From assembly GCA_022571985.1 (NCBI GenBank), contig JACZWU010000005.1, forward strand, positions 124,001 through 188,000: a DNA stretch of 64,000 nt, read 5' to 3'. A model generated the notes under the pieces. The model was not told the origin of the DNA. It saw only the letters and a program-made list of their open reading frames with translations, and searched no databases. How positions within the stretch are numbered: the first letter of the stretch is position 1; every line of letters starts with the position of its first letter. This stretch comes from Candidatus Zixiibacteriota bacterium (GTDB taxonomy: Bacteria; Zixibacteria; MSB-5A5; GN15; FEB-12). A program made the position numbers and the translations under genes. Shown here in pieces: positions 2,151 through 56,661 of this stretch.

Positions 2151-5143
2151 TGTTTGAAGTTGGTGACAAGTTTGCTCATTTTGAAATTCTGTCTAAAATC
2201 GGCGAAGGCGGCATGGGGGAAGTCTATCTCGCCAAAGATTTGAAACTCAATAGACGGGTAGCCATCAAAGTATTGCATCAAGAATCATCTGATGAGAAAG
2301 AACGCAAGGATCGCTTTATCAGAGAAGCACAGACGGCAGCACAAATCAACCATCCGAACGTAATGGGGATTTTTGATATTGGCAGTTCTGAAATAAATGG
2401 CAAAGAATTCAGTTACATCGTATCGGAATATATATCCGGCAGGCACTTGACAGATATCATAAGCAAAAGTAGTCACGACCTAAAAGAATTAGTACGAATA
2501 GCTGAGAGAATTGCGGCCGGTCTGGCAGCGGCACACCGCTTAAATATCGTGCACAGAGACATTAAGGCTGACAACATAATGATAGAGGAGGGTGGAGAAC
2601 CAAAGATTCTGGACTTTGGGCTGGCCAAAGCAGTTCAAGGGATGTTTTTTGATAAAGACAGCGAGACAACCAAGACGCTCTCTCAAGAATTGACTAAAGC
2701 CGGAAAAATTCTGGGCACAGTATCATATATGTCGCCGGAACAGGCCAGAGGCGAGAAAGTTGATATTCGCTCTGATATATTTTCGTTTGGAATTTTGCTT
2801 TATCGCATGGTTACAGGTGAATTTCCCTTTGAGGGTCCTACTCAGGTTTCTACACTGGCTAAAATACTTGAATCAAATCCCGAACCGCCCAGCGCCAGGA
2901 ACCAAAATATTCCTTTAGAGCTTGAGCGCATAATTGATAAATGTTTGCGCAAAGACGTAGCCGACCGCTATCAAGGCGCATCTGATCTGGTGGTGGATCT
3001 TCGCGGAGTCAGGCGCCAGTATAACAGAGGCGTTACCGATTCTGTTTCATCTATAAGTGTAATGGATAAAGAGATTGCCAAAGTTAAAGGATTCAAGTTT
3101 TTCCCCAAATTTGCAAACAGAATACTTATAATTGAAGCAGCAGCTGGCATAGCAGTGGTTATTGCCTTTCTTATTTTTTCAGATATGTTCTCCGCGGCAG
3201 AAAGCGGGAATACAGTGACGACGATTGAAAACAGCCTGGCAATAATAGGATTTGAAAACAAGACCGGCGATGAAAGCTATGACTGGCTTACAACAGGTTT
3301 ACCTGAGATCCTCTTAACAGATCTTTCTCAATTGTCTTCGCTGAAAATAATCAGCAGAGAGAGAATATTTGACTGCTTCCCGGATAAGAATGCTCCTCAT
3401 TCTCATGAAGCATGTGTCAAAGCTGCTCAGTCTCTGGGTGCTTCCAAAATTCTGACTGGCTCATTTTACCGCTTGGGTAAAGATATGATACGAATCGATG
3501 CCCGGCTTGAAGATGTCGCTACCGGAACTATCATACTTGCCGAAAAAGTTGTCGGCACTGATCCATTTTCTCTGGTCGATAGTTTAACCATGAAGTTGGC
3601 AGCGTCGCTGGGCATAGCTGACATAGAGGGCAAACAGACTGTTTCAATGTATATGACCTCTTCTGAGGAAGCATTCAGACACTATATAGCTGGTGTACAG
3701 AAGTTTGTGGGGCATAATTACGACGATGCCCGCGAATTGTTTAGTAAAGCGCTCGAAATTGACTCGACATTCGCTATGCCTTATCTGAGAATAGGCATGA
3801 GCTATGTTTTTCAGGGGCGGCCTCAACAGAGCAAAGAATATTTTAGAAAGGCGAACAGCTACCAGGACAAACTCCCGCAAAGAGATAGAAATTTGTTAGA
3901 TATATATTCTGATCTCTGGCTAAATCAAGAGTTTGACGACGCCTTTACCAAGTTAGAAGTCTTTGTGAAGAACTTTCCAAACGACAAAGAAGGCAGAGCA
4001 ATTTACGGAATATTGATATTCCAGTTTCAGCACGATACGACCAGGGCATTGGCACAAGTAGATACTGCTTTGCAGCTGGACCCCTTATTTTTGCTTGCTC
4101 ATAATTTCAACATGCTTATTTACGCAAGTAGCGGATACTATGATAAAGCAATTGAAACAGGAAAGCTGGTTAAGAAGATTAGCCCTGACTCCCCGCTTTC
4201 CTATGACGGACTGGCCGGAGTGTATAAAGAAACAGGCCAGCTCGACAGGGCATTAGATGAATATAAAGAGCTTGTTGAAAAATTCCCTTCCGAAAACTGG
4301 GCCTTGAGGAATATTAGCCAACTGTATATAATCAAGCGAAAATTCGACAGCGCCTATTATTATCTGGAAAAATTTAAGGCCAGCGCAAAAACCGATGCCT
4401 ACGATTTGCGACGATATTATAGAGGAATCGCGAATCTCAAGATTTGGCAGGGTGAATTCCGTGAGGCAACTAAGAACATCTTACGGGCCATTGAGTACTC
4501 TACCAAAACTAATGATAGTGTAATTGTACATTCAGACTATTCAAGTCTGGCACGGTACCATCACCGAAACGGAAACAGCGACAGCGCCATTCTTTACGCA
4601 GACTCAGGCAGGTTATGGGCTACTGCCTTAGACAAGATTGATTATTCGTTCCAGCTTCTGCAATTTGATTACTCCCGACGAGATGAAGCGCGAAAAATTT
4701 TCAAAAGTGAATGGTCAGGATTTAGAGCGAAATTGCCATCAGACTTTCTGGCCCTACTGGATGCCCTCGGGGATATTTTCGAGGCAAGATACAATGCAGA
4801 TACTGCTGCAATATTGGCTGGAAGTAAACTGATTGGAGAACTCCAAAACAATGACGCTACCTCTCAAAACAGATGGAATCTGGGAGTAATGCATGTACAG
4901 TTCCACGAGTATGAAGCAGGCATAAGAATTCTTCAGGAATTTGTCGATGCAGAAGACCAGTCGCATGCTGCCTACGTATATCTACTGGCCAAGTACTATC
5001 TCGGCGTGGCCAACCAGGCGCTCGGAAACAGTAACGAAGCGGTTGAAAACTTTACAGAAATGCTGACCTACTGGACTGATCCCGATATAGAAACAAAGGA
5101 AATCAAAGACGCCCATAAACGACTGGCAGAATTAATAAGCTGA
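2150..5143 (+). CDS. Membrane Ser/Thr protein kinase with TolB-like and TPR extracytoplasmic region
   Basis: Kinase motifs IGEGGMGEVYLAKD, VAIKVL, HRDIKADN, DFGLA, SYMSPEQARG; TM near residue 330; TPR array at C-terminus. ATG at 2150 overlaps the upstream stop by one base (TGATG); the ORF track start at 2147 is a TTG. Confidence 0.93.
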   Translation: MFEVGDKFAHFEILSKIGEGGMGEVYLAKDLKLNRRVAIKVLHQESSDEKERKDRFIREAQTAAQINHPNVMGIFDIGSSEINGKEFSYIVSEYISGRHLTDIISKSSHDLKELVRIAERIAAGLAAAHRLNIVHRDIKADNIMIEEGGEPKILDFGLAKAVQGMFFDKDSETTKTLSQELTKAGKILGTVSYMSPEQARGEKVDIRSDIFSFGILLYRMVTGEFPFEGPTQVSTLAKILESNPEPPSARNQNIPLELERIIDKCLRKDVADRYQGASDLVVDLRGVRRQYNRGVTDSVSSISVMDKEIAKVKGFKFFPKFANRILIIEAAAGIAVVIAFLIFSDMFSAAESGNTVTTIENSLAIIGFENKTGDESYDWLTTGLPEILLTDLSQLSSLKIISRERIFDCFPDKNAPHSHEACVKAAQSLGASKILTGSFYRLGKDMIRIDARLEDVATGTIILAEKVVGTDPFSLVDSLTMKLAASLGIADIEGKQTVSMYMTSSEEAFRHYIAGVQKFVGHNYDDARELFSKALEIDSTFAMPYLRIGMSYVFQGRPQQSKEYFRKANSYQDKLPQRDRNLLDIYSDLWLNQEFDDAFTKLEVFVKNFPNDKEGRAIYGILIFQFQHDTTRALAQVDTALQLDPLFLLAHNFNMLIYASSGYYDKAIETGKLVKKISPDSPLSYDGLAGVYKETGQLDRALDEYKELVEKFPSENWALRNISQLYIIKRKFDSAYYYLEKFKASAKTDAYDLRRYYRGIANLKIWQGEFREATKNILRAIEYSTKTNDSVIVHSDYSSLARYHHRNGNSDSAILYADSGRLWATALDKIDYSFQLLQFDYSRRDEARKIFKSEWSGFRAKLPSDFLALLDALGDIFEARYNADTAAILAGSKLIGELQNNDATSQNRWNLGVMHVQFHEYEAGIRILQEFVDAEDQSHAAYVYLLAKYYLGVANQALGNSNEAVENFTEMLTYWTDPDIETKEIKDAHKRLAELIS

Positions 5144-55754: not shown

Positions 55755-55795
55755 AACAGCCGCCTGACAACTAGAAAGTCAAGCGGCTGTTTTAT
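55755..55795 (+). terminator. Intrinsic terminator of the 52513-55724 operon
   Basis: AACAGCCGCcTGAC-aactagaaa-GTCAaGCGGCTGTTtta. Confidence 0.75.
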
Positions 55796-55821: not shown

Positions 55822-55896
55822 AAAAAGAGGGTGCAGCTCTGGTTGGGCAGAGGGGGCTAGGAAACTACCCAGGGACAGCAGAGAGACACCCTCGAC
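55822..55896 (-). ncRNA. Candidate small structured RNA (~70-75 nt), unknown class
   Basis: Minus strand: TTGACA (55931-55926)-N16-TATATA (55909-55904), then GAGGGTG (55893-55887)…CACCCTC (55833-55827) closing stem, then TTTTT. Internal hairpins GGGTAG-TTTC-CTA(G)CCC and CTCTG-CCCAAC-CAGAG. Confidence 0.55.
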
Positions 55897-55947
55897 AATC
55901 TTTTATATACCAGATTCGATTATTTTGTCAAGATAGATTCCCCCAAA

Positions 55948-56661
55948 CTAAAACCGGGCAATTTTTACCGGAATTGTCAGGAAAGTCGCTTCTTCATTTT
56001 CTCCTGCAATCACTTTCAATGTGAAATTAGAAAGGTAAGTTCCTTTGCCTAATTTAGGATTAGGAGACAACGAAAGCTCCAGCGTTTCGCCCTTTTCAGC
56101 TTCGGCTTTGATAATTTCCACTGTAAAGCTGCTGTCGTACTGTCTTTCCAGCTCCAGACTTATCTTATCAAAAAATTTATTCGGAATCTTAACTGTTTTC
56201 TTTTTATGATTCGGTAAAAAGAAAACAGAAAAAGGATTAGGTTTTAAGCCATTCATCCATTGTCCGACATTCGCCAGATAAATCAGGCTGACAGTTTTTT
56301 TCTCAGGAACACTCATGTAAATTTTGAATTTTCTGTTAACCGGACCGTAAAAGTCTTTGGTGTCAAAGGTCAATACGAAATCAAGAGTATCACCTCTTTC
56401 CACCCATTCTTTTCCAAATCTGACCGCAGAACAGTCGCAGGGAACATTAACACTATCTATTCTGATTCGCTTTAAGCCGCTGTTGATCACTTTGAATTTG
56501 TGAAACAGCTTATACTCTATGCCTACATGACCAAAATCAAAATACTCTTCGACAACAGTTACCGCCTGAGCTGAGAGTAACTGACTTGTAATCGCTAAAG
56601 TAAAACCAATGGCCAGCAGCAATCTTAATTTTGAATTCTTAATTATTTTGTGCATTCTCAA
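55948..56661 (-). CDS. DUF1573-family secreted protein
   Basis: YFDFGHVGIEYKLFHKFKVINSGLKRIRIDSVNVPCDCSAV… typical DUF1573 layout. Confidence 0.75.
   Translation of the reverse strand: MRMHKIIKNSKLRLLLAIGFTLAITSQLLSAQAVTVVEEYFDFGHVGIEYKLFHKFKVINSGLKRIRIDSVNVPCDCSAVRFGKEWVERGDTLDFVLTFDTKDFYGPVNRKFKIYMSVPEKKTVSLIYLANVGQWMNGLKPNPFSVFFLPNHKKKTVKIPNKFFDKISLELERQYDSSFTVEIIKAEAEKGETLELSLSPNPKLGKGTYLSNFTLKVIAGENEEATFLTIPVKIARF

Follow-up and report, generated by a model that had tools for sequence, protein, structure and literature searches.

A conserved, self-terminating small RNA with a near-invariant C-rich loop in the candidate phylum Zixibacteria

Introduction

Several bacterial small RNAs, among them CsrB/RsmY and 6S RNA, use a conserved structural motif to bind or titrate a protein. 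Others carry C-rich or CU-rich loops and pair with mRNA. The α-r14 RNAs of the alpha-proteobacteria (NfeR1, SmelA075) display an ultraconserved C-rich loop, CCUCCUCCC, which is a true anti-Shine-Dalgarno sequence; they have three or four hairpins per RNA, are Hfq-independent and use a sigma70-type promoter (PMC10746234, PMC3927594). RepG of Helicobacter pylori possesses an additional stem-loop at its 5′ end and targets homopolymeric G repeats in the leader of tlpB by base pairing (PMC8295292). LhrC of Listeria uses three short, redundant CU-rich sites and blocks the Shine-Dalgarno sequence (PMC4132741).

The RNA described here lies in a 64,000-nucleotide stretch of a Zixibacteria genome of 2.93 Mb; the whole stretch analysed is referred to as the window. 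The RNA family it represents is new, but its general type is known: a self-terminating small RNA gene with its own promoter signal, a hairpin followed by a U-run, and a conserved, covarying fold. The family spans most of the candidate phylum, for which our literature search found no description of a small or noncoding RNA.

The resemblance is closest to α-r14, with which the Zixibacteria RNA shares the pattern of one C-rich loop kept identical on freely varying stems, a sigma70-type promoter, Hfq-independence and one link to a sigma54 activator. In contrast to α-r14, it consists of one hairpin with the 14-nt loop UUUCCUAGCCCCCU, belongs to another phylum and shows no enrichment of pairing at start regions. 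Membership of α-r14 was rejected: all listed members carry UUUCCUAGCCCCCU or a close variant rather than CCUCCUCCC, and each gene has one hairpin, not three or more. Like the abundant RepG, it is a conserved small RNA whose C/U-rich terminator loop appears to be the active part, but no common G-repeat target was found for it in 129 genomes. As in LhrC, there are sibling copies with CU-rich loops, the terminator loop included, although here a single long invariant loop takes the place of short redundant sites. Protein binding or titration, as in CsrB/RsmY and 6S RNA, is a proposal only for the Zixibacteria RNA, which has neither the GGA loop motif nor the large open bubble. By the tests run, it is a member of none of these groups.

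Results and Discussion

Organization of the gene

On the minus strand, positions 55931–55822 read TTGACA-N16-TATATA, followed by a self-terminating hairpin and U5. The −35 hexamer TTGACA (55926–55931) and the −10 hexamer TATATA (55904–55909) are separated by a 16-nt spacer; an alternative −10, TATAAA (55907–55902), would give a spacer of 18 nt. The predicted transcript, on the same strand, is about 75 nt long (55822–55896), its 5′ end placed from the −10 spacing and its 3′ end from the U-run. The terminator U5 (55822–55826) follows directly 3′ of the basal helix, and most relatives retain a U-rich tail after the hairpin.

The initial annotation had described a compact gene for a small RNA, with a promoter and a terminator of its own, in the gap between two convergent operons. 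The description holds well: the promoter, the closing stem of GAGGGUG (55893–55887) and CACCCUC (55833–55827) and the U5 are exact to the base, and the flanking genes, DUF1573 on the minus strand and a dockerin-type gene on the plus strand, do converge on the element. Neither site of this gene is reported by a generic promoter and terminator scan: its rule requires T as the sixth base of the −10 hexamer, which TATATA lacks, and the terminator loop exceeds the limit of 8 nt. With up to three mismatches allowed, 52 of 67 family members have a TTGACA/TATAAT-like pair ahead of the hairpin, compared with a mean of 14.3 and a maximum of 22 in shuffled upstream regions, which makes it most likely that the RNA is an independent unit with its own predicted promoter, hairpin and terminator.

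Fold and covariation

The RNA folds as a single rod of three helices, capped by the 14-nt loop. The basal helix P1 pairs GAGGGUG with CACCCUC and shows two-sided changes at all seven pairs, with 97.1% of alignment cells paired. The middle helix P2 is formed by CUCUG (55879–55883) and CAGAG (55837–55841), with two-sided changes at 5/5 pairs and 89.7% of cells paired. In the apical helix P3, GGGUAG (55865–55870) pairs with CUGCCC (55845–55850), with 99.5% of cells paired, two-sided changes at four of six pairs and pair probabilities of 0.986–0.997 in the window; most relatives have CUACCC as the 3′ arm, and the window copy has a U-G wobble.

In the alignment of 69 sequences, which was fitted to a model having the same structure so that covariation counts lean towards that structure, 95.9% of cells are paired, two-sided changes occur at 16 of the 18 pairs, and 101 two-sided cells are counted as against 16.4 in shuffles; slid versions of the structure reach about 60% of cells paired or less in the same sequences. 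Compensatory changes are also visible directly, as in GGGUAG/CUACCC, GGGAAG/CUUCCC (locus L106), GGCAG/CUGCC (L037) and CUCAGAG/CUCUGAG (L095). The folding energy is better than that of dinucleotide shuffles (z −3.5 in the window copy, −4.8 and −5.3 in relatives). Each of the six members that were folded forms a single rod capped by a loop of roughly 14 nt (z −3.5 to −5.3), and the minimum-energy rod makes up 52–69% of the ensemble in the window copy and two close relatives.

A different fold had been proposed initially, in which two mutually exclusive helices make the RNA bistable. The letters of both alternatives exist in the window. The suggested hairpin GGGUAG-UUUC-CUA(G)CCC has a modelled probability of about 0.001, as opposed to 0.986–0.997 for the pairing of GGGUAG with CUGCCC, and covariation is found for the latter pairing only. 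The segment CAGAG had been assigned two partners; the first, at 55883–55879, is P2 and covaries, while the pair with the second CUCUG, at 55852–55848, is unsupported, this segment being CUCUA in most relatives, the pair broken in 58 of the 69 sequences and its probability 0 in the window. Nor is CCCAACC a loop, since its CCC is part of P3 on the 3′ side and its AAC lies in an internal loop. With neither alternative helix covarying, neither exceeding a probability of about 0.001 and one rod dominating, bistability as a conserved feature is refuted, and we attach next to no weight to it. A folding intermediate in which the 5′ GAGGG pairs with the loop CCCUC was likewise considered and rejected, as it shows no covariation.

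Distribution in the phylum

At E≤0.01, a covariance model built from 69 sequences (R2) detects the RNA in 105 of the 129 Zixibacteria genomes searched; of the 19 families, 17 have a match and two, f8 and f19, have none. This conservation is the strongest evidence that the RNA does not arise by chance. With an earlier model of 26 sequences (R1), 106 of 132 genomes have a match at E≤1, and the core of the window copy (55893–55824) scores 98 bits against that model. Searching with the region by blastn matched 50 of 60 genomes, mostly over the 70–75 nt of the hairpin alone, at about 85–94% identity. Conservation and covariation, the absence of which the initial annotation had named as refuting, are thus both strongly positive, and the element is almost certainly a genuine gene for a conserved, structured RNA.

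When 84,980 GTDB species genomes were searched for an exact 25-mer, 43 stretches matched, almost all of them from records under the title Zixibacteria; the few others bear the title Calditrichota, Ignavibacterium, FCB group or simply bacterium. The metagenome-assembled genomes deposited as Ignavibacterium or Calditrichota (L054, L069, L083) carry the Zixibacteria-specific RNA, and their deposited names are probably wrong.

At the gathering score, Rfam 15 recognizes only three tRNAs in the window, and relaxing the threshold adds nothing but matches on the opposite strand, with E values of at least 2.4. No Rfam class was matched, in keeping with the initial view that the element is not 6S, SRP, tmRNA or RNase P RNA.

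Genomic neighbourhood

In the window, the RNA sits between the end of the DUF1573 gene (55948–56661, minus strand; Pfam DUF1573, E 4.9e-14) and the end of the dockerin-type gene (55724, plus strand). The order cysK-DUF1573-RNA, on the same strand, is conserved in most families, and most main-copy loci have a DUF1573 homologue immediately upstream. At 14 loci (families f2, f4, f5, f7, f9 and f12) rtcB is the convergent gene, with archease next to it in several; examples are L059 (rtcB and archease at 3064–4518 and 2633–3067) and L183 (3159–4196). The rtcB neighbour apparently represents the ancestral arrangement, with the dockerin-type gene replacing it in the lineage of the window. The interval separating the RNA from the dockerin-type gene also contains an ordinary inverted repeat (55755–55791; 14-nt arms, 93% complementary, 9-nt loop), probably the terminator of the convergent gene.

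Three genomes (G010, G027 and G034) have cleanly lost the RNA and keep an intact DUF1573 homologue, and family f19 lacks it altogether; the RNA thus behaves as a self-contained module that a lineage can do without, and it has been passed on mainly by vertical descent. Its U-run and its location, with the hairpin starting 55 nt past the DUF1573 stop in the window, would also suit a cis-acting element, namely an intrinsic, perhaps regulated, terminator of the DUF1573 operon or, for the paralogs, an attenuator in a kinase leader. In line with this, a plain terminator-like hairpin takes the place of the RNA after DUF1573 at RNA-less loci, clearly so in G027 and G034, and some paralogs are found 156–290 nt upstream of a kinase–sigma54-activator gene, on the same strand. 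A terminator, however, has no need of an invariant 14-nt loop, and most members have a promoter-like pair of their own, located after the upstream gene and before the hairpin. Moreover, the upstream gene varies by family (DUF1573, response regulators), so that the RNA is not merely the terminator of one gene, and the downstream gene is convergent in many families. We consider a purely cis-acting role improbable.

Even less probable is an element that acts as DNA, either a cruciform protein-binding site or a mobile repeat. Its inverted-repeat shape and the additional copies in some genomes are what such an element would show, but promoter and U-run hold one orientation, the RNA is usually present in a single copy within a vertically conserved neighbourhood, and no match was found in the phages and plasmids searched. 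Viral contigs gave one match to the 18-nt loop segment described below, without the hairpin, which is taken as chance.

The invariant loop

The apical loop UUUCCUAGCCCCCU (55851–55864, minus strand) is the near-invariant core of the family, as judged from exact-match counts and paralogs. Together with the closing AG/CU it forms the 18-mer AGTTTCCTAGCCCCCTCT, which is found exactly, usually once, in 67 of 132 phylum genomes; its reversed control has no match in the same genomes. Ten paralogs or variants, whose stems are unrelated, carry this 18-mer unchanged. Distant families depart from the loop sequence only in length and in the C-run, giving UUCCUAGCCCCCCU and UUCCAGCCCCCCU. Being the sole part retained where the stems are replaced, the loop is, by strong inference from these comparisons, the active part of the small RNA.

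The pairs adjacent to the loop are also fixed (A-U in 69/69 sequences, G-C in 68/69), whereas the four outer pairs of the apical helix covary; one distant copy in G099 is an exception with different closing pairs. This suggests that a partner recognizes the shaped loop plus the end of the helix. The loop also retains CUAG despite a genome-wide avoidance of CTAG: 400 kb of the window's genome (L227–L246) contain 135 copies against about 1,560 expected, an approximately 12-fold under-representation. Stems that change freely around a fixed loop containing an avoided tetranucleotide point to a specific partner. Dimerization of two loops through the palindromic CUAG was considered and dropped, since the palindrome is lost in some distant families.

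Search for a partner

Because the loop is C-rich, the initial annotation saw in it a complement of Shine-Dalgarno sequences. The 16S rRNA ends in the usual tail, CACCUCCUUU, and the loop is not the complement of the organism's AGGAG-type Shine-Dalgarno sequences. Among 352 start regions of the window's genome, AGGGGG occurs in none and GGGGGC in one, and the loop finds 53 strong sites by energy as compared with a mean of 64.9 for permuted loops. Energies at these start regions being no better than those of permuted loops, an anti-Shine-Dalgarno action is not supported.

A rival reading is a base-pairing small RNA of the α-r14, RepG or LhrC type, in which the C-rich loop would pair with G-rich sites in a few mRNAs and the paralogs would be sibling RNAs with a common seed. 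There are published precedents with identical C-rich loops on variable stems; the constant AGCCCCC and the drift between C5 and C6 fit a seed; and the paralogs adjoin a sigma54-activator gene, while NfeR1 of α-r14 represses ntrBC. Against it, the window's own genome has no antisense site to the 18-mer with three or fewer mismatches, and across 129 genomes the complement AGGGGGCTAGG turns up just 17 times outside the RNA genes, at sites unrelated to one another; of the scattered sites of extended complementarity, one, in G099, is another copy of the RNA. Neighbouring genes show no excess complementarity to the loop, and pairing with rRNA is no better than for permuted loops (16S and the stretch downstream of 16S, used because a 23S search gave no match). 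These pairing tests cover one genome or use simple energies, and a few specific mRNA targets could be missed by them. Pairing with mRNA is a credible alternative, to which we give about one chance in three in our own estimate.

Hfq was found in none of 20 genomes, including the window's own, with the control genomes positive, and 6S RNA (RF00013) was found neither in the window nor in any of 20 genomes comprising the window's own and relatives; both are either truly missing or too diverged for the models. Bacterial Y RNAs are located beside rtc genes. As rtcB and archease are the ancestral neighbours here, the Ro60/TROVE protein was searched for as well, and none was detected in 12 genomes.

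The explanation that best accounts for these observations overall, which we put forward tentatively, is a trans-acting, Hfq-independent small RNA whose loop would be recognized by a conserved partner. Transcription would start at the sigma70-type promoter a few bases before the single hairpin, which would double as intrinsic terminator, so that the product of this free-standing gene would be little more than the hairpin itself. The three-helix stem, as the covariation indicates, would serve as a scaffold displaying the 14-nt loop, closed by A-U and G-C pairs, to a partner encoded elsewhere. Action in trans through the loop is, judging from the sequence comparisons, very likely.

As to the nature of the partner, we guess that the RNA binds or titrates a conserved RNA-binding protein, as decoy small RNAs do. 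We lean towards a protein since Hfq was not detected in the 20 relatives and the closing pairs are fixed along with the loop, and we favour it over mRNA because complementary sites are few and unrelated, CUAG is retained and no excess complementarity is seen; the preference is slight, as every published analogue with a C-rich loop acts by pairing to mRNA, and a protein is perhaps not quite an even bet. If the partner is a protein, the RNA would belong to a regulatory circuit built on RNA, in a phylum for which the searches detected neither Hfq nor 6S RNA.

Additional copies of the loop

Paralog hairpins at seven loci (L032, L033, L035, L130, L185, L193 and L198) lie upstream of the kinase–sigma54-activator gene, and one loop copy (L195) lies downstream of a sigma54-activator gene. 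The adjacent gene encodes a protein of about 1,390 aa with Pkinase, GAF and Sigma54_activat domains, usually also with TPR repeats and a Fis-type HTH. A broader reading, which we regard as rather unlikely, is a phylum-specific RNA-protein system in which the invariant-loop hairpin would be the common ligand of a putative RNA-binding protein and the loop would have been grafted onto other transcripts, covering those beside the kinase–sigma54-activator gene. At several loci, TGTCAG-type direct repeats are present between the paralog hairpin and this gene, and they could be activator-binding sites. Tandem copies of the RNA, about 210–290 nt apart, are found at L179 (G102), L183 (G101) and G119:C119.
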